Part shown: one piece after another, positions 17,755-26,547 of the stretch | Numbering within the stretch: the first letter of the stretch is position 1 | Layout of the letters: every line of letters starts with the position of its first letter | Assembly: GCF_000317555.1 (NCBI RefSeq) | Contig: NC_020051.1 | Coordinates: 62,001-126,000, forward strand | Length of the DNA stretch: 64,000 nt | DNA from: Gloeocapsa sp. PCC 7428 | GTDB taxonomy: Bacteria > Cyanobacteriota > Cyanobacteriia > Cyanobacteriales > Chroococcidiopsidaceae | Direction: 5' to 3' | Program-made: the position numbers and the translations under genes | The notes under the pieces: model-generated | What the model saw: only the letters and a program-made list of their open reading frames with translations | Told to the model about the DNA's origin: nothing | The model's database searches: none

Positions 17755-18453
17755 CTATTGCGTGATGTTCTTGCTTCTAAATTGTTGAAGGAGTTGGGCA
17801 AACAGTACCGAATCAATTTCACAGTCGATTGCCCTTATCCCCTGACCTTTCTGGCTAATTGAGGGAGGTTGAACACCCTGTTCAAAACAATCGGTTAACA
17901 AAGCAACTAAGTGACTTAATCCAGTAAATTGAAGCTGAGTAGACAAAAAAACTTCCGTTACTCTTATCGGAGGCAAGTTCGTTCCATTCGCACAGTACAG
18001 GGTCGGCGGCTCCGCATTTAATCGAATCATGCAATAGATGGTGGTGTTGCTGTCATTTAGAATGGCGATCGGCAGTAAATTAATCAAACACTTACCAAGC
18101 TTGAGATGACGATGCCCTGCCAGGGCATATTCCAAGGGCAAAAACTTTGCGACAATGAGCCGCCCTTCAAATAGTAGATGGACTTCGTTCTCTCGCCCTG
18201 CTAATTCACCGTGCCATTTCCCTTTGAGTCGCAGAAATTTTTCAGCTAAATTCAATTTTTCTGAAGTGCCAGAAAGCCCATTGTGCCATTGATATAAATC
18301 GTGAATATCTTGGGGCAGTGCCCATGAGAATGCAGCGATTTGCTTCTTAATGTCATCGGCTGTTAATCCAGGCTGTAGACGACTGGCAATTTTAGGAGCT
18401 GTTTGACTTAACACTGTGTCAAAGCGGACGAATGTGTCAATCATTTCAATCAT
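17755..18453 (-). CDS. SMI1/KNR4-family protein
   Basis: 232-residue cytoplasmic protein with the SMI1/KNR4 fold signature near the N-terminus: LTADDIKKQIAAFSWALPQDIHDLYQWHNGLSG, where acidic residues, LP..L..LY..HNG are diagnostic. In bacteria the superfamily includes immunity proteins for contact-dependent or polymorphic toxins and stand-alone proteins of unknown role. No toxin gene is adjacent; neighbours are azoR and a TetR-type regulator. It is therefore annotated by family only. The ATG at 18453 gives a complete domain, though an internal ATG at 18444 (MIDTF) is possible. Confidence 0.75.
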   Translation of the reverse strand: MIEMIDTFVRFDTVLSQTAPKIASRLQPGLTADDIKKQIAAFSWALPQDIHDLYQWHNGLSGTSEKLNLAEKFLRLKGKWHGELAGRENEVHLLFEGRLIVAKFLPLEYALAGHRHLKLGKCLINLLPIAILNDSNTTIYCMIRLNAEPPTLYCANGTNLPPIRVTEVFLSTQLQFTGLSHLVALLTDCFEQGVQPPSISQKGQGIRAIDCEIDSVLFAQLLQQFRSKNITQ

Positions 18454-18644: not shown

Positions 18645-19223
18645 TCACGGAGCTAGCCCGTTCCACAACACCGCGATCGCATCAGAAATAGCACGATCAG
18701 TATCAATGGGTTGATGAGCACCAATGGTTTCAGACAAAACTAAATTGTGTAAGTGCGAAAGTAAAACTGTTGCTGTTACCGCAGCATTATCTGTATAGAT
18801 TCGCCCTAGATTTAACTCAGCAGTCAAATATTCTGTTAACTCATTTCCGATTTGCATCGCAGGCATCGTATGATGTTGCAAAAAAGTTTGCATATTAAAG
18901 GATGGATGACTGATGAGAGATAAAAAGACTGGCATCACCTCACGGAAGTAGGAAACAATCTGCAAGCTAATTAATTTGAGGTTTGTCGTTACTTGTTTCT
19001 TACCAGGTTGAACGTTGAACATTACCTCAAGTTGCGCTTCTGGCAGCACCATCGCGGCAAAGAACAGCTCCTCTTTCGTACCAAATCGCTGGAAAATAAC
19101 GGCTTCAGAGATCCCTACCATTTTAGCAAGCGTCCGTGTCGAAGCTTTCGCTCCTTCTTTGATGAAGAGCGATCGCGCCACAGCAAGAATTTCTTCATCT
19201 GTGATGGTTTTATTGCGAGGCAT
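18645..19223 (-). CDS. TetR/AcrR-family transcriptional regulator
   Basis: About 192 residues. The N-terminal TetR helix-turn-helix is clear: ITDEEILAVARSLFIKEG, then TRTLAKMVGISEAVIFQRFGTKEELFFAAM. The C-terminal ligand-binding half is hydrophobic and unspecific. I chose ATG 19223 (MPRNKTITDEE); the frame can extend to a TTG at 19253 but that adds residues not typical of the family. It may regulate the azoR/sigma cluster downstream on the same strand or another efflux gene; no operator is evident beyond a perfect 10-bp inverted repeat at 19393-19433. Confidence 0.88.
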   Translation of the reverse strand: MPRNKTITDEEILAVARSLFIKEGAKASTRTLAKMVGISEAVIFQRFGTKEELFFAAMVLPEAQLEVMFNVQPGKKQVTTNLKLISLQIVSYFREVMPVFLSLISHPSFNMQTFLQHHTMPAMQIGNELTEYLTAELNLGRIYTDNAAVTATVLLSHLHNLVLSETIGAHQPIDTDRAISDAIAVLWNGLAP

Positions 19224-19392
19224 TGAGTTTACAGCGAGTTTTAGACTGTTCAAGTAAGTTTTTGCACAATGTTTGTATTCTCCTTTTCACAAAAGGATGC
19301 CGTGTTCTCGGCGAATTTCAAGAATGGATTGTTCCTTAAGTTTGGAGAGATTCTCAACAGCTAGCTTCTTTTTCATACGTAAGCTCTTGAAG

Positions 19393-19433
19393 ATGATACC
19401 AATGATACGGCGGAAATGGAAGGTTGGTATCAT
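19393..19433. repeat. Perfect 10-bp inverted repeat upstream of the TetR gene
   Basis: ATGATACCAA (19393-19402) and TTGGTATCAT (19424-19433) are exact reverse complements separated by 21 bp. It lies in the non-coding stretch 19224-19780, which otherwise shows no supported gene. Could be a regulator-binding dyad or a weak hairpin. Confidence 0.5.
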
Positions 19434-19780
19434 ATGGTGCAACTAGGTTAAATTCTATATTTTACGCCATTTTTGTGACTGAAGGATAAAAAATACAAAT
19501 CAACTATTTTGCCTAGTTTAATCCCTTTTAGGCAATGTTTTTATAATCCAAGACGTAGCTATAATGCTTTGAGTTATATGTTTTGATATGTACCCACTTC
19601 TGTTTTGGGCAATGTTTTTTTGATAGATGCGATCAAGAAAAACATTTATGTAACAAAACAATAGCTCTCTAAAACAATTCTTTAAAGTAAACAACAACAA
19701 CTTGACCACGAAAATCTTACATCGTAGAATCAACTCCACAAGCTTTTCTACAAAATAAACAACTTCTACAAAGAAGCTTG

Positions 19781-20086
19781 ATGTGTAAAGCAGGGTTGAT
19801 TCCAATGCAGAGAAGAAAAATTTTAATTGCAGCCAAAACTTATCCATCAATAAGTACGAAGTACAAAGAGACAGTTTGTACTGCAGGGATTTTATTAGAC
19901 GATAACGAAAAGCCTTTGCAGTGGATTCGGATTTATCCAATTCGTTCTCGTGAGTTAGAAGTAGATCAGCGCTTTCCTAAATGGGGAATCATTAGTGCTG
20001 AGATTGAGAAAAATGATAAAGACTATAGAGAAGAAAGCTTTCGGATTAATGATAGCTCAATAGAATTAGTTAGAGCTTGTTTTTAA
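19781..20086 (+). CDS. Hypothetical protein, probably 3'-truncated
   Basis: Short frame whose core MQRRKILIAAKTYPSIS..., CTAGILLDDNEKPLQWIRIYPI reads as the N-terminal region of a longer conserved protein, but it ends abruptly after SIELVRACF in a TAA followed by AT-rich non-coding DNA. I do not recognise the family with confidence. Start could be ATG 19781 or, better fitting the core, ATG 19805. Its base composition is AT-rich like the following SLATT gene, unlike the metal genes on either side, suggesting a separately acquired segment. Confidence 0.4.
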   Translation: MCKAGLIPMQRRKILIAAKTYPSISTKYKETVCTAGILLDDNEKPLQWIRIYPIRSRELEVDQRFPKWGIISAEIEKNDKDYREESFRINDSSIELVRACF

Positions 20087-20747
20087 ACAATTATGAATTG
20101 TTCTGTTTAAGCTTCGCTAAGCGACGCAACATGCTGGGAATCATTGTAACATTGCTCGAACAGGTATTATCTATCAACTCATAATTATCTACCTGCCATT
20201 AACAGCAAAAATGAGTATATTTTTCAATTTTAAACTAGCTATTCCCCCTCAATCCGAGAACTAATTTAAAAAGAGATATTTTACAACCTTAAAGTCACGG
20301 ATCTTGGCTCAATGCCTACTAGTTTAAATCAATAGTAGCTCAAAATACTTCTTAGGTGTTGGAATCAATAAAATAATCTGCCATTTCCTCTATTATAGGT
20401 AGCGCTTAGTACTAGTAGACTTAACCTTGGTTCTAGAGTGTTCACTTTCCTATACTGTCCACCTAGTTTTTATAGGCATATAGTGCAGATTAGAATTGAG
20501 AAGAGAATACATTAGTAAATCTCCTAAACCTTTAGATATTGACATGATTTTAAGTGAATGTTAGAAATATAGAAACTGTAATAAATTCTATATTAGTTAA
20601 ACTAGCTGTCAAGTTAACTATAAATAGTTTTTATGCGCTACAAATGACCTTTCAAAAACTTTATAAAGTAAGTTATTAGTTAACGTAACCTTTTCAAATA
20701 TACTAACTAAGCTATTGATTTAACAGTTTTTAACTGTTTCTTAAACC
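20087..20747. other. AT-rich non-coding stretch
   Basis: About 660 bp without a supported gene, strongly AT-rich, with stop codons in all frames. It separates the truncated gene from the SLATT gene. It may hold decayed sequence from the truncated upstream gene, but I could not recognise any protein in it. Confidence 0.5.
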
Positions 20748-21239
20748 ATGGCTAATAACCAAGAGATTGTTAAAGAAGTATTAGATTTAGAAAATAATTC
20801 TAGACTTGTTAAAACTGCACACTTTAATGCTGCTCAAACAAAACAGAATCTACATAAAATAATAGGCTTATCGATTATTATAGTTAATATCATAATATTT
20901 TCTCCTTTACTCGATTTAATTACACCTAAATATTCGGCAGTTAGCATAAAGCTTTTAGCTATTATTGGAGCATCGTTAGCAGGAATCCAAACACTTTTTA
21001 ATTTTCAAAAAGAGGCAGATATGCACCTAAGTGCTGGAAATATATATGCAAGTATTTATCATAGAATTGGAATGCTTCTAGCTAAATACCGAGACGGTAT
21101 ATTGACTCCAGCTAATTTTGTTGAAGAGTCTGAAACATTGCAACAAGAGTACCTCAAAGCAAATAAAAGCTTTGAATTATGTATTCCATCCAACAAAGAT
21201 TACGAATGTGCAAGAAACTCACTTAAAAAACGTAGTTAG
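20748..21239 (+). CDS. SLATT-domain two-helix membrane protein
   Basis: 163 residues. An N-terminal soluble helix (RLVKTAHFNAAQ) is followed by two membrane helices (~38-56 and ~64-85) and a C-terminal helical region with EADMHLSAGNIYASIYHRIGML. This two-TM plus flanking-helix pattern fits the SLATT (SMODS and SLOG-associating two-TM) superfamily, proposed pore-forming effectors in nucleotide-signalled defence. No SMODS/CD-NTase, SLOG or other sensor gene is adjacent in the window; the next intact gene downstream is at 22002. It could therefore be an orphan, or act with the cassette at 22002-24315. No clear ribosome site before ATG 20748. Confidence 0.7.
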   Translation: MANNQEIVKEVLDLENNSRLVKTAHFNAAQTKQNLHKIIGLSIIIVNIIIFSPLLDLITPKYSAVSIKLLAIIGASLAGIQTLFNFQKEADMHLSAGNIYASIYHRIGMLLAKYRDGILTPANFVEESETLQQEYLKANKSFELCIPSNKDYECARNSLKKRS

Positions 21240-21545
21240 TAGTAGTTATATTTTTAATTTGACTTGGTATTATCGCTGTAATTAAGCATAAAAGCATCAA
21301 GTATGCTGCCATATAATGTTTTTACATTGCTAGAAACCGGAACTGTGTAAACTTTTGTGTGTTTGAATGGATGGTAACTAAAGCTAGTCATATCAGGTCT
21401 TCCAACGACTCAATTGCTTAATGAAACTTTCTCTAGCATTACGTCTGTTAAGTGTTGAATACTTATAACTTATTTACAAACCACTTTATACTCACCTCGT
21501 TTGACATACTTTTTGCCCTTACTGGCTAACAGCATCGGATTAAAC

Positions 21546-21607
21546 AAGGTTTTGGTACTTTGTAGAAAGTACTAATAAGGTTTTGGTACTTTGTAGAAAG
21601 TACTAAT
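21546..21607. repeat. Two exact tandem copies of a 31-bp hairpin unit
   Basis: Units 21546-21576 and 21577-21607 are identical. Each contains GTACTTT-GTAG-AAAGTAC, a perfect 7-bp stem with a 4-nt loop. The surrounding 21240-22001 has no supported gene. Two tandem hairpins could be a termination, recombination or RNA feature; two copies are too few for a CRISPR array. Confidence 0.8.
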
Positions 21608-21700
21608 GAAGTAAAACATTTGTTTAAAGGGAGTATTGACGATTTAGCTATAGATAAAATATCGGGGTGTAGTTTATATTTTAGAGAGCGCAGGATTTTT

Positions 21701-21782
21701 GGAATCTGATTGCTGTATTGACTGCACAGCAACAGTTTTAGCGACAGGTTGCTCCTGGTGACACCAACCTTCTATTTAGGCG
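21701..21782. repeat. Left copy of an ~82-bp imperfect direct repeat
   Basis: Aligns without gaps to 24523-24604 with about 80% identity by eye; shared blocks include GACAGGTTGC, TGGTGACAC and CTGTATTGA. The two copies bracket the three genes at 22002-24315 in the same orientation. In one minus-strand frame both read as a similar peptide (RRxVSPxATCR...NTAI), so they may be remnants of one small gene or element end. Confidence 0.7.
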
Positions 21783-22001
21783 AGTTTGGAGGAATGGGCG
21801 ATCACAGTAAAGAATATCAGTCTCTGAAAGCCAACTATAGCAACGGTTTTAAACCGTTTAGCACTTATTGCAGCTTCTTTAGCCTTACGCCAATACGGGT
21901 GAATTCCCCCTTGCAAAGAGCGCCTACTTATATGTACACTTAAATGTAAGCTTTTGTGTAAACTTTTTGTTTGACACCATTATAGTAATGAGCCTTAACT
22001 C

Positions 22002-22775
22002 ATGAGTAAACTCTCTAAACCGCCTCTATTTATGGTGCTGTGTCAAGTGAACTTTGTCACAGTGCTTAAGATGGCAAATTTCATTCAGGACATCCAAGAA
22101 AGTCTTCGCAAGAAAGGCTTTCCCATCTATGAAGAGGAGATAATTCAGGAGTTTATTATCGCCAAAAGCCAAATACACCCAGAAGTAGCTGAAAAGAAAC
22201 GGTGGGTTTTTAGTGATATCAAAAGAAAGCAATGCGTCATCCTATCAACCGACTCGGTTGTGTTGGAAACTATTTGTTATGAGGAACTTGAAACTTTTAT
22301 CAAAACTTTTGAGGGGGTGCTTGAAACAATTCAAGTTACAGCAAGTCCTGAATTTGCCGTAAGAATTGGACTACGATACATTGATATTATTAAGAGCGAT
22401 CAATCTGCTTCTCTAAATGAACTAATCCAAGAAGGACTTCGTGGTTTTGCCTTTGATCGAGTTTCTGGGCTTTCAAAACCAGAATCAACTTCCTTAACAA
22501 AAACTGAAACACCTATTGGTGGCATTCTTGTTGTGCGTACAATGTTTAATTCTGATAATGTCGTACTTCCTCAAGATCTGGCGACGTCTAAGCTCAAGTT
22601 TGATTTACCAGAAACTAATGATAATTCGATTACATTAGATATTGATCACTTTGCCGAACTTAACATCGACTTTAAGTCTGATGAAGTGCTTCAGACAATC
22701 AGAAAATTGCATACCTATACTAGCGAAGCATTTAAAGTTGCTGTCACACCTAAAGCACTTGAACAGTGGAAGTGA
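22002..22775 (+). CDS. TIGR04255-family protein
   Basis: 257 residues with the typical opening PPLFMVLCQVNFVTVLKM...FIQDIQESLRKKGFP and the central pattern EFAVRIGLRYIDII...ELI, which match the sporadically distributed TIGR04255 family of unknown function. Cytoplasmic, with no signal or membrane segments. It is the first gene of a tight three-gene run (20 bp then 14 bp gaps). ATG 22002 is used since the N-terminal PPL motif lies just after it. Members are known mostly from accessory DNA; function not established. Confidence 0.72.
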   Translation: MSKLSKPPLFMVLCQVNFVTVLKMANFIQDIQESLRKKGFPIYEEEIIQEFIIAKSQIHPEVAEKKRWVFSDIKRKQCVILSTDSVVLETICYEELETFIKTFEGVLETIQVTASPEFAVRIGLRYIDIIKSDQSASLNELIQEGLRGFAFDRVSGLSKPESTSLTKTETPIGGILVVRTMFNSDNVVLPQDLATSKLKFDLPETNDNSITLDIDHFAELNIDFKSDEVLQTIRKLHTYTSEAFKVAVTPKALEQWK

Positions 22776-22795
22776 AATAATTTTCAAGGAGAAAA

Positions 22796-23476
22796 ATGGC
22801 TTGTATCAGTTCCGAATACCTATTAAACAGTTCATATACTCCTACGGGAAGCGATCGAGGAATTCCCGTTCCACCCTCTGAGGATTCTCTCTCTTTGGAT
22901 ACTTTGGATGTCATTAAATCTGACAATACCAAATATTTTACTAAGAATTCTTTTATTACTAAGTCTTTTAGGACTGGCGAGAGGCTTAATTTTCTTTATC
23001 ATATAGTGTCTACTCGTTTAAAAGAGCAAAATTGTTTTAAACATGTACCATTACAGAGACAAAGAGTCTGTTCTACCGATATAGAACTGCTTTCCTTCCA
23101 AGAGCAACTTACAGCTATTAAACAAAACCTTTCACTTACTAACAGCGAACTTGCTAAAGTACTCGATGTTTCTCGTACAACACTTTATAAATGGATGGAA
23201 GGCATAGAACCACATGATACAAATAGAGAAAGAGTTTACACTTTCTATCAGCTTGCTTGTTACTGGAGAGATCTTTCAGCAAATCCTCTTGGCATCTATG
23301 TCAAGCAAAGAAATCAACAAGGGTATTCGCTCTTTCATCTAATGTCCCAGAAATCTGTACCCGTGAATGACGTAAAGGAACTCATGGCTATTGTGGCTCT
23401 TAGGCGTGAGCGGGAGCGTACTTCTCAGTCTCTATATGAAATGCGAAGAGACAAATTAAAAAAGGAAGTGAAGTAG
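22796..23476 (+). CDS. XRE-type helix-turn-helix protein
   Basis: 226 residues. An N-terminal ~95-residue region of unknown fold (rich in Ser/Thr/Asp) precedes a clear helix-turn-helix at ~103-137: LTAIKQNLSLTNSELAKVLDVSRTTLYKWMEG. The C-terminal ~85 residues include a segment NPLGIYVKQRNQQGYSLFHLMSQK and a basic end RRDKLKKEVK. The AAGGAG 6 bases before ATG 22796 supports the start. It probably regulates the three-gene cassette or acts as its DNA-binding partner; the long extensions on both sides are unlike a simple antitoxin. Confidence 0.7.
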   Translation: MACISSEYLLNSSYTPTGSDRGIPVPPSEDSLSLDTLDVIKSDNTKYFTKNSFITKSFRTGERLNFLYHIVSTRLKEQNCFKHVPLQRQRVCSTDIELLSFQEQLTAIKQNLSLTNSELAKVLDVSRTTLYKWMEGIEPHDTNRERVYTFYQLACYWRDLSANPLGIYVKQRNQQGYSLFHLMSQKSVPVNDVKELMAIVALRRERERTSQSLYEMRRDKLKKEVK

Positions 23477-23490
23477 AGATTTAGCAGAGT

Positions 23491-24315
23491 ATGAAACTTT
23501 CTGCCGAGGATGCTTCAGATATTAAAGATCGTGGTTGGCGACAAGGAGCATTCCTTTCTCCAGAACTCGTTAACAAAGTTAAAATCAGCAATAATATTGC
23601 CCGCGATTCATTAGAACATCTCATGATCCTTTCTCATGATTGTGATGTTACTAACCCGAAGTTTGAGGCGGAGCCAACAGTCGAGCTTATAGGTGCAATA
23701 GTTGATGAAAAGGATGGCAACAAGCAGCACGGTAAATCACCAAGAGTCTATCAATTTGAGTATAGTGGTGAATATTACACTTTGAATATTCATCAACGTT
23801 ATTTTGTTAGTAGGCAAATTCTTTGTCATGAAGATCCCCATTTTCAGCTAAATCCTAGAGAGTGCGAAAAGATTCAAAGGTGGACAGCTCGACGGTATTT
23901 TCGTCAAGGATTTCCTGATGAATTTAACCGCAGAATTCAACCTCTGTTTGATCGCGGTAAAATACGTAAGCTTATGAAGAAGCACGGCGATCTGTTTTAC
24001 GGCATCTACATAGATATTGGCGACCACGTTGAAATGGAACCAGATGAAGCATATGAAATTACCATTTGGGCTGTGATGGATGATGCATCGTTTGATGATG
24101 AACAGAAGAAAAAGCAGGGAGATGATGTTTTTCAAACCCTTTTAAAGGAAATAGGAACCCTAAAGGAACACAAAATATTTTTAAGAGAAGGTGAGAATGT
24201 TCTCAAGGCAGCGTATGAGGTAACACTTTCTGATATGGATCTGCTTAAACGTTGGGATTTTGACGATCTAAGTTTCAAGGGTGATAACATTAATCATCTA
24301 CAGCATCCTTATTAA
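23491..24315 (+). CDS. Hypothetical protein with SHDCD motif, third gene of cassette
   Basis: 274 residues, cytoplasmic, not recognised. N-terminal half contains HLMILSHDCDVTNP (S48-H49-D50-C51-D52), a cluster of residues suited to metal binding or catalysis, followed by beta-rich sequence and a helical region KIQRWTARRYFRQGFPDEFNRRIQPLF. C-terminal half is highly charged. It lies 14 bp after the HTH gene, so it is likely co-transcribed and a functional partner. An enzyme or effector role is possible but not shown. Confidence 0.6.
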   Translation: MKLSAEDASDIKDRGWRQGAFLSPELVNKVKISNNIARDSLEHLMILSHDCDVTNPKFEAEPTVELIGAIVDEKDGNKQHGKSPRVYQFEYSGEYYTLNIHQRYFVSRQILCHEDPHFQLNPRECEKIQRWTARRYFRQGFPDEFNRRIQPLFDRGKIRKLMKKHGDLFYGIYIDIGDHVEMEPDEAYEITIWAVMDDASFDDEQKKKQGDDVFQTLLKEIGTLKEHKIFLREGENVLKAAYEVTLSDMDLLKRWDFDDLSFKGDNINHLQHPY

Positions 24316-25158
24316 TTATTAAATAGCTACGTGTATACCTAAATATAGGGTTCGTACGATATGGTACAGCCTATCTCTGAACCATTATTTTATAAAGGAT
24401 ACAGAGTTCGAGTTCCAAATTTAAGCAATTGCTTTAATATAAGTTACACAAATATTTCTTTAAAGTCGCTTCATAGGAAAAAAACATTTATAAAATTATA
24501 TCTAAGTGAGCGCTATTACTTGAGAATCAGATGGCTGTATTGATTGCACAGTAAGGGTTACATCGACAGGTTGCACTTGGTGACACGAACCTTCGATCTA
24601 CGCCGATACGTGGAAGGCAGAAAAACCATGTGCTTAGCAATTTGAGGTGCCTAATGCTAGACAAGACAATGCGGTGCTGTTGGGTAGCGACTGTGCGATG
24701 CATCTCGCCAATGTCTGCTGTTGTGGCAAAGAGCATCCAGACATGTGCAGCAATTTCATCTTCCAGAGAAGTACGCAGTTAAACAAGATATGTACAGTAT
24801 CATGCTGGTCAAATATGTGTAGGACTTCTGCTGGCAATTTGTCTGCCATGTTGCCCTCTTGCTCTAATGCACGTAATTCCTGAATTGCTCTGCTTAGAGC
24901 TATTGAATCATCAAAACATTTATTCATTTTATGCTTCTATACAGAACGACATTTTAAAGATCAACAAAACGATCCTACAATGGCTTGCTTATGTAAGCAA
25001 GTGCTTACTCATTTATAAGCTACATCTAAATTGCTGTCTTTGCCAAAGCCCCAATCTGCTAAACAGCCAAATGAAACTTCTCTAAGGAATTTTCATTATT
25101 GAGAGTTACTCTTGGAGCCAACCCTCGAATCCCTGTCTCTACAAACAAGATTTTTTTT
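24316..25158. other. Non-coding stretch after the cassette
   Basis: About 840 bp without a gene I can support. It contains the right copy of the direct repeat (24523-24604). A minus-strand 97-codon frame at 24634-24927 has no recognisable motif and a Cys/Leu-rich tail, so it is not called. Confidence 0.5.
24523..24604. repeat. Right copy of the ~82-bp imperfect direct repeat
   Basis: Partner of 21701-21782, same orientation, about 80% identical without gaps. It lies 208 bp after the stop of the third cassette gene. Confidence 0.7.
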
Positions 25159-26547
25159 CTAATCATGTTCATAATCATAATGATGCTGTAATCCAGAGTA
25201 GGCATGGGCATGACGAAGTGAGCTGTGTTGATGGGGATGCCTGTGAGGTTCTGTTACTAAAATGCTGGGATGATGCTCATGTCGGTGATGTTCATCGTGA
25301 GTATGTTCGTGCTCATGCCAATAGCTTTTATGGACGTACTTCTGTTCTTTCGGCGAAAGAGTCAGTTGAATCATCACGAGAAGAACTAAACCAATCAAAC
25401 TACCGTAGAGAAAAGATATATCTTCTCGATGACTACCCAACCAGCCTGCTAGAGGATAGGAAAATAACCACCATAAATGGCTCCAGGCAAACTGGGCACC
25501 ATAGACTCGCCCTTGAAATTCGGTTGGGGTGCGGTCAGCAATCAACGTCTGAGCAGACACATTCACTAACGTTTGTCCTGCCCCCGCTACTAACCACAGC
25601 ACTAAAAGAAATGGGAGTTTAACGTAACTGGCAGGGAGGAGCGCGGTCGTAATTAAGCTGGCTCCTAGCAAAATAATCGTTGTGCGCGTCCAATGCTGTC
25701 CTAACGATCCAACAGCAGCAGCAGCAAGAGTTGCTCCAATACCAAATGCACCCATTACCCAACCGTACTGTACACTACCTAGCTTGAGCACACCCTGTAC
25801 ATAGCCCACAGTATTGACTAGAATCATGGCTCCTGTCACAGAAGTCACCAGTTGCATTGCTAACGCATATCGCAAATATCGATTGGCAAATAGGCGAGTT
25901 GTTCCTGCCTGAATGTCTTGCCATGTTCGACCTGATGAGCGGTTTTGAGCGGCTGCTTGTTCAACTCGCAGTTGGCCAGGCAATGTGATAATTAAAATCG
26001 CAGCGATTAGAAATGTGAAGGCATCTAGAAAAAAGACTTGCCTTGCTCCAACAAAGGCTGCGATCGCGCCTGCAATTCCTGGACCCAGAACGCCCAGGAG
26101 TTGAAAGGTAGCACTAGAAAGGGCGATCGCCTGGGGATAGTCCTCTTGCCCTGTCACTAGCGGAATCGTTGCTTGATAGGTTGGCGTGAAGAATGCGTAA
26201 AAGACATTTAAAGCAAAGACGATTGCATAAATCTGCCAAACTGCATTCACAAATGGCAGTAAGCTGACGATTCCCATCCGTGCCAAGTGAGTTGTCACAA
26301 GGATAGTTTTGCGATCAAGGCGATCGGCAAGCACCCCAGCAAATGGCGACAACAGAACAAAGGCAGTAACTCGTAAAGTCAAGGCTCCTGACAGCACAAC
26401 GGCTGAATTATTGCCAGCCTCCTCAAATGCCAGCAATGCTAACCCTAACCAGGTGAGCGCATCCCCTAGTAAATTGGTCACTTGTGCTGTATATAGACGA
26501 GCAAAAATTGGGTTTCGGAGACTCCGGAGCAGTTGGAAGGTCTGCAT
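25159..26547 (-). CDS. MFS metal exporter with His-rich C-terminal tail, NrsD-like
   Basis: 462-residue major facilitator (MFS_3/EntS-like) protein with twelve membrane helices; LFARLYTAQVTNLLGDALTW-type opening and the loop motif ADRLDRKTIL are typical. The last ~59 residues are an extraordinary cytoplasmic tail with about 19 histidines (HEHEHTHDEHHRHEHH, then HRHPHQH and HAHAY). In Synechocystis the nickel operon nrsBACD ends with NrsD, an MFS protein with a His-rich C-terminus, so this is the likely counterpart of the NrsRS/RND genes 9 kb to the left. It is alone here and separated by the AT-rich accessory segment. The next 400 bp upstream (26548-26951) hold no gene. Confidence 0.85.
   Translation of the reverse strand: MQTFQLLRSLRNPIFARLYTAQVTNLLGDALTWLGLALLAFEEAGNNSAVVLSGALTLRVTAFVLLSPFAGVLADRLDRKTILVTTHLARMGIVSLLPFVNAVWQIYAIVFALNVFYAFFTPTYQATIPLVTGQEDYPQAIALSSATFQLLGVLGPGIAGAIAAFVGARQVFFLDAFTFLIAAILIITLPGQLRVEQAAAQNRSSGRTWQDIQAGTTRLFANRYLRYALAMQLVTSVTGAMILVNTVGYVQGVLKLGSVQYGWVMGAFGIGATLAAAAVGSLGQHWTRTTIILLGASLITTALLPASYVKLPFLLVLWLVAGAGQTLVNVSAQTLIADRTPTEFQGRVYGAQFAWSHLWWLFSYPLAGWLGSHREDISFLYGSLIGLVLLVMIQLTLSPKEQKYVHKSYWHEHEHTHDEHHRHEHHPSILVTEPHRHPHQHSSLRHAHAYSGLQHHYDYEHD

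Follow-up and report, generated by a model that had tools for sequence, protein, structure and literature searches.

A mobile three-gene operon of Gloeocapsa sp. PCC 7428 as a possible tripartite toxin-antitoxin-like anti-phage module

A 64,000-nucleotide (nt) stretch of Gloeocapsa sp. PCC 7428 DNA (contig NC_020051.1, positions 62,001 to 126,000, forward strand; hereafter the window, in which all positions below are given) carries three consecutive genes that recur together on plasmids, in prophages, and in the genomes of many bacteria. The chances are about even that these genes constitute one mobile tripartite toxin-antitoxin-like anti-phage module. They encode a TIGR04255 family protein, a helix-turn-helix (HTH) protein, and a protein containing an SHDCD cluster whose N-terminal domain is predicted to adopt the MazF/CcdB toxin fold. 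The operon layout noticed in the first-pass annotation of the window is borne out by the coordinates of the open reading frames (ORFs), which lie on the plus strand with gaps of 20 nt between ORF1 and ORF2 and 14 nt between ORF2 and ORF3.

22002..22775, plus strand: ORF1, TIGR04255 family protein, 257 amino acids (aa); NCBIfam match over the full length
22796..23476, plus strand: ORF2, XRE-like HTH protein, 226 aa; weak HTH matches
23491..24315, plus strand: ORF3, SHDCD protein, 274 aa; N-terminal domain with a predicted MazF/CcdB fold, followed by a C-terminal alpha/beta part

The three genes are tightly linked. Loci were gathered from cyanobacteria, plasmids, viral contigs, and species genomes using ORF3 alone as the query (in the species-genome scan, 80 of 130 relatives were kept). 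This yielded 141 entries, namely 140 loci and the window piece, with the window and several contigs counted twice. All three genes were found in 136 of the 141 entries, and in each of these 136 complete entries they were arranged ORF1-ORF2-ORF3 on one strand, a co-occurrence of neighbors for which the first-pass annotation had proposed a test. Four incomplete entries start inside the module (L067, L125, and L014 and L095, which are on the same contig). The module is also mobile. It was found on viral and prophage contigs, and all eight plasmid matches carried a TIGR04255 gene followed by two more genes in the same order, as judged by annotation and profiles (the plasmid-collection loci, L004 to L011, are absent from the ORF1, ORF2, and ORF3 alignments described below). 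The ORF3 relatives form 93 groups at 85% identity, and the record titles name Cyanobacteria, several classes of Proteobacteria, and Meiothermus, along with single metagenome-assembled genomes labeled Nitrospirae, Chloroflexi, Verrucomicrobia, Terriglobia, Holophagae, and others (labels unchecked).

Within the cyanobacteria, an ORF3 profile matched 7 of 386 genomes, four of which had a divergent ORF3. This distant clade has VVTQTCDI at the place where the main clade has SHDCD. A query from the distant clade matched 6 of the 386 genomes, and the two clades together were found in 9. The intact three-gene order was present in four of the six genomes matched by the distant-clade query (G022, G095, G127, and G167); G328 has the module divided between two contigs, and G278 has an interrupted ORF3.

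ORF3 was described in the first-pass annotation as an unfamiliar component with an SHDCD cluster (residues 48 to 52), and this description holds, as no housekeeping family was matched. Its matches were at chance level in Pfam (best E value, 0.1) and NCBIfam (E value, 0.032), and PADLOC gave none. When 91 ORF3 members were searched against Pfam, seven families were matched by one member each (best E value, 2.6e-5), which was taken as chance. These 91 members are the rows of the ORF3 alignment, comprising the window and 90 of 93 nonredundant relatives, with the shorter L038, L073, and L088 excluded; 78 of them matched phrog_34320, a phage family with no function attached. Sequence searches of the PDB with ORF3, as with ORF1, gave no relatives or only rows with E values of 0.14 or worse.

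The structure prediction that had been called for was made for ORF3 with AlphaFold2. In the model, residues ∼10 to 139 of ORF3 form an SH3-like barrel with the fold of the MazF/PemK (Kid)/CcdB superfamily, and the 50 best structural matches of the model were all toxins of the MazF/CcdB superfamily. The comparison covers mainly residues 7 to 139 and barely includes the C-terminal part, and identity to the best Staphylococcus aureus MazF chains was 11 to 14%. The predicted likeness is one of fold. ORF3 differs from these toxins in its conserved residues, in an alpha/beta extension of ∼130 residues beyond the barrel, and in being encoded in a three-gene operon. The conserved residues are HDCD, E61/E65, R85, H88, K108, and W131-Y136-R138; the Cys-Asp pair is kept in both clades, and Arg85 and an Arg-Tyr-x-Arg helix are kept in the main clade. 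Judged from the alignment, the strictly conserved C, D, R, W, and Y look like an active or binding site.

ORF2 had been called an XRE-type HTH protein, a call that is weak but plausible given its Pfam matches to HTH_17 (E value, 1.6e-4) and HTH_3 (E value, 3.8e-4), both below the Pfam cutoff. A PADLOC match to mad1 (E value, 2.9e-5) was rejected because it covers only the HTH stretch, residues 117 to 160. In the ORF2 alignment (86 rows, the window and 85 of 93 relatives), a TG motif N-terminal to the HTH occurs at the columns of window T60-G61 in 79 rows, and a hydrophobic stretch ahead of the HTH, defined as a best 15-residue mean Kyte-Doolittle value of at least 1.4, occurs in 67. This hydrophobic-TG segment may anchor the protein in the membrane, act as a degron, or bind a partner, and in the last case it would recall, by analogy only, the chaperone addiction of toxin-antitoxin-chaperone (TAC) systems.

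The assignment of ORF1 to TIGR04255 was confirmed over the full length of the protein (NCBIfam E value, 4.1e-37; 128.3 bits against a cutoff of 30). Each of the 79 aligned ORF1 members (the window and 78 of 84 relatives) matched this family at an E value of ≤1e-3, 16 of them also matched phrog_35157, another phage family with no function attached, and R36, G123, R125, D213, D215, F244, and W256 are invariant. TIGR04255 is a family name with no assigned function. A literature search on it found no paper, although the tables of Rousset et al. (PMC9122126) may list the arrangement unnamed. The family is wider than the three-gene module, being present in 33 of 386 cyanobacterial genomes compared to 9 of 386 for ORF3 of either clade. 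Of 40 TIGR04255 places in cyanobacteria, 12 were examined over ∼1.5 kb on each side. All three genes were together at six (L184, L186, L187, L189, L190, and L192, with ORF3 broken in L189), ORF1 and ORF2 were near a contig end at one (L185), and ORF1 was without ORF2 or ORF3 in this range at five (L183, L188, L191, L193, and L194). Therefore, ORF1 also exists apart from its partners, whereas ORF3 is nearly always with both. At L194, a DNA-cytosine-methylase-like ORF was seen by eye close to the lone TIGR04255 gene.

In Escherichia coli, the module was present in 19 of 5,426 complete genomes, 18 of them carrying one variant and 1 another. At the two loci read, one per variant, it lies in a P2-like prophage between replication endonuclease/DinI genes and the portal gene. 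According to Rousset et al. 2022 (PMC9122126), the gpA-gpQ interval of P2-like prophages is a hotspot of antiviral systems. The flanks, used as queries, hit 1,304 E. coli records, and among 60 listed records the interval contained retron, TIR, SIR2, AIPR, DprA, and restriction genes and many hypothetical genes. Phage genes were also seen among the neighbors of the module as a whole: in a set of 138 of the 166 genes adjoining it in 87 loci (those excluded were mostly short), 10 matched Phage_portal and 4 matched phage integrase. PADLOC matches in this set included ThsB, Hhe, PD-Lambda-1, MzaE, a type IV enzyme, and type I specificity subunits, one gene each (among 25 of 99 families; some matches may fall on the same gene).

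The closest ORF3 match found, at 94.5%, is on the Gloeocapsopsis dulcis plasmid NZ_CP119970.1 (L004). By blastn, the window and this plasmid are 96 to 97% identical over 21879 to 22888 and 22948 to 24373, after which the identity ends; 59 bp inside ORF2 are unaligned, and the G. dulcis ORF2 is shorter by 21 codons, in frame, in the linker ahead of the HTH. Because the identity ends at 21879 and 24373, the common block of ∼2.5 kb consists of the three genes and ∼120 bp upstream, and it is the apparent unit of transfer.

21879..24373, plus strand: block common to the window and the G. dulcis plasmid; blastn, 96 to 97% identity; includes a ∼120-bp leader

Two known systems are the closest points of comparison. 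The first is a three-gene system of the P2 hotspot, which we take to be the one named 3HP (Rst_3HP), and which resembles the module in having three genes in the gpA-gpQ interval of E. coli P2-like prophages. Five E. coli hotspots with many hypothetical genes were read, and nine proteins from three of them plus one E. coli ORF1 were scanned with PADLOC. One hotspot (L144, strain Res13-Lact-PEB17-18) matched Hp1, Hp2, and Hp3 with E values of 6.5e-64, 3e-46, and 1.5e-8, respectively. Hp1, Hp2, and Hp3 matched none of the three window proteins, the 91 ORF3 members, or the E. coli ORF1, and identity with 3HP was therefore rejected; the module is a different occupant of the P2 hotspot. Any other PADLOC-listed system was likewise rejected, none being matched by the window proteins, apart from the HTH-only mad1 match of ORF2, or by the 91 ORF3 members. 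The second is CmdTAC, in which newly made phage capsid protein draws CmdC out of the complex, after which CmdA is broken down and the toxin released (PMC11618068). The likeness is an analogy and lies in the three genes, the antiphage setting, and the presence of a candidate antitoxin and a candidate sensor. In contrast to CmdTAC and other TAC systems, ORF1 belongs to TIGR04255, and none of the three proteins matched a SecB-like chaperone or ADP-ribosyltransferase family in Pfam, NCBIfam, or PADLOC.

The earlier suggestion of a transferred module, perhaps a defense or toxin-antitoxin-like system, is supported by the linkage, the plasmids, the prophages, the P2 hotspot, and the predicted toxin fold. 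From these we infer the toxicity of ORF3, its neutralization, a role for ORF1, a trigger, and a defense phenotype, with differing confidence. A function in defense or against mobile elements is probable. ORF3 is somewhat less securely, but still rather likely, the toxic effector; as a toxin of the MazF/CcdB fold, distinguished by conserved residues of its own and by the extra C-terminal part, it would arrest growth either by cutting RNA, as MazF does, or by binding an essential enzyme, as CcdB does. For ORF2, the case for an antitoxin or repressor of ORF3 is evenly poised; its HTH would bind DNA and repress the operon, and ORF2 would keep ORF3 inactive. ORF1 is tentatively, and at a little less than an even chance, a sensor or stabilizer. 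In a CmdTAC-like manner, it would keep ORF2 and ORF3 silent as long as no invading phage or plasmid disturbs it. A more specific possibility, and a rather doubtful one, is a new class of phage-triggered tripartite toxin-antitoxin system. In it, the active site of the barrel effector would be unlike that of known MazFs, an HTH antitoxin would restrain the effector, and a TIGR04255 protein that senses a phage product would receive the antitoxin's N-terminal hydrophobic-TG segment. If so, TIGR04255, which is also found without ORF2 and ORF3, would be a general sensor module.

However, several points weigh against an anti-phage toxin-antitoxin module. First, a common fold by itself proves no function, and likeness to MazF was confined to the predicted fold. 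Pfam PemK_toxin matched none of the 91 ORF3 members at an E value of ≤0.01, and an hhalign comparison of ORF3 with MazF, made with four MazF sequences only, gave results equal to those with reversed or shuffled columns. MazF RNases use a catalytic Arg and Thr, and by eye no residue was kept in at least 75% of ORF3 members at the likely places; the W and Y of residues 131 to 138 are, also by eye, lost in the distant clade. Second, the window ORF2 keeps the TG motif but has no hydrophobic stretch, and therefore the chaperone-addiction reading is weaker for this copy. Third, housekeeping genes such as aconitase are also among the neighbors, and the defense-gene matches are plain counts. Fourth, the ratio of nonsynonymous to synonymous substitution rates between the window and G. 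dulcis was 0.27 for ORF1, 0.99 for ORF2 (27 changes), and 0.59 for ORF3 (22 changes), too few changes to decide, and the values for ORF2 and ORF3 would, if anything, speak against the module. Finally, at locus L139 ORF3 is partial and no partner gene was found.

Three other explanations were weighed. The genes may be an addiction cassette that uses toxin-antitoxin logic to retain plasmids or prophages, with no sensing of phage. Kid and CcdB, which are plasmid-addiction toxins, have the MazF/CcdB fold predicted for ORF3, and eight plasmid records, one from a close relative, carry the module. This is nevertheless unlikely, as the module is also chromosomal in E. coli, where prophages carry it at a hotspot of defense genes, and addiction needs two genes only, whereas 136 of 141 entries retain the third gene and, of the entries that are not cut off, one lacks it. 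About equally unlikely is a nontoxic ORF3 whose barrel is a binding module, the HTH protein, ORF3, and the TIGR04255 protein acting as a DNA-binding complex for silencing or superinfection exclusion on incoming phage DNA. The lack of a sequence relation to MazF in Pfam and hhalign, the absence of evident MazF-type catalytic residues, and the HTH protein in 136 of 136 complete entries would fit such a complex, but 50 of the 50 best structural matches are toxins of one superfamily, and the strictly conserved C, D, R, W, and Y resemble an active or binding site. The last explanation, a lysogeny or regulatory moron of prophages in which an HTH regulator and accessory proteins have no defense role, is suggested by the HTH protein and by the viral contig L013, where by eye the module is flanked by an integrase-like ORF and an ORF for a CI-like repressor. 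It is very unlikely, since the same three genes occur on plasmids and across the genomes of many phyla, and since both E. coli P2-like prophages that were read carry them in the accessory hotspot.

Should the module be an anti-phage toxin-antitoxin system, it would be of a known kind, the toxin-antitoxin-like defense operons of prophages and plasmids, and new in its third component and its unusual effector. It would assign a function to TIGR04255 and to a third protein lying outside Pfam, add a MazF-fold effector, as modeled, with an apparently new active site, and add a defense system common to many bacteria and prophages that, at 2.4 kb, is small enough to clone and assay at once.

The diverged direct repeats reported on either side of the operon are present, and the pair extends from ∼82 bp to 108 nt at 76% identity.

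21674..21781, no strand: left member of the diverged repeat pair; not included in the block common to the G. dulcis plasmid
24496..24603, no strand: right member of the diverged repeat pair; not included in the block common to the G. dulcis plasmid

Their reading as the ends of the transferred unit was not supported, as the copies lie ∼100 and ∼120 bp outside the shared block, and by blastn the G. dulcis stretch has just one weak 22-nt match to one repeat. A dispersed repeat family was rejected, since a search of the 5.88-Mb genome at an E value of ≤0.001 gave these two places and no others. At 19414 to 19443, beside a TetR-like gene, 30 nt match part of the left repeat in inverted orientation (80%), perhaps as a third, broken copy, and a 31-bp unit, AACAAGGTTTTGGTACTTTGTAGAAAGTACT, occurs in two tandem copies (97%) at 21543 to 21604, immediately ahead of the left repeat.

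The operon is AT-richer than much of its surroundings, as had been noted. The G+C content is 0.37 to 0.39 over 22 to 25 kb of the window, compared to 0.45 to 0.50 at 25 to 30 kb, 0.42 to 0.43 at 16 to 19 kb, and 0.48 to 0.51 at 12 to 16 kb; at 19 to 22 kb it is lower than or equal to that of the operon (0.30 to 0.38). No Rfam RNA was found in 19000 to 26000 up to an E value of 0.5, and a promoter and terminator scan gave a result no better than that for shuffled sequence.

Some minor observations concern the neighborhoods. At the E. coli P2 hotspot, L143 has another set of three hypothetical genes (∼368, 142, and 215 aa) and L146 a similar layout; the three L143 proteins had no PADLOC match at an E value of ≤0.001, and the set is a candidate for a further unnamed system. 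Although the record of the G. dulcis plasmid is circular, a "telomere resolvase" is encoded on it ∼3 kb from the module. The SLATT gene placed in the same segment by the first-pass annotation is indeed present upstream of the operon (20748 to 21239, plus strand) but lies outside the block shared with G. dulcis, and its membership in the transferred unit is not supported. It encodes a two-transmembrane SLATT_4 protein (NCBIfam E value, 1.2e-27, over the cutoff) that also matches the PADLOC 2TM effector (E value, 1.3e-9), and it sits in a stretch of 30% G+C. Farther upstream, 17755 to 18453 (minus strand) has a weak match, under the cutoff, to SMI1/KNR4 (SUKH-1; E value, 6.2e-4), a fold frequent among immunity proteins.
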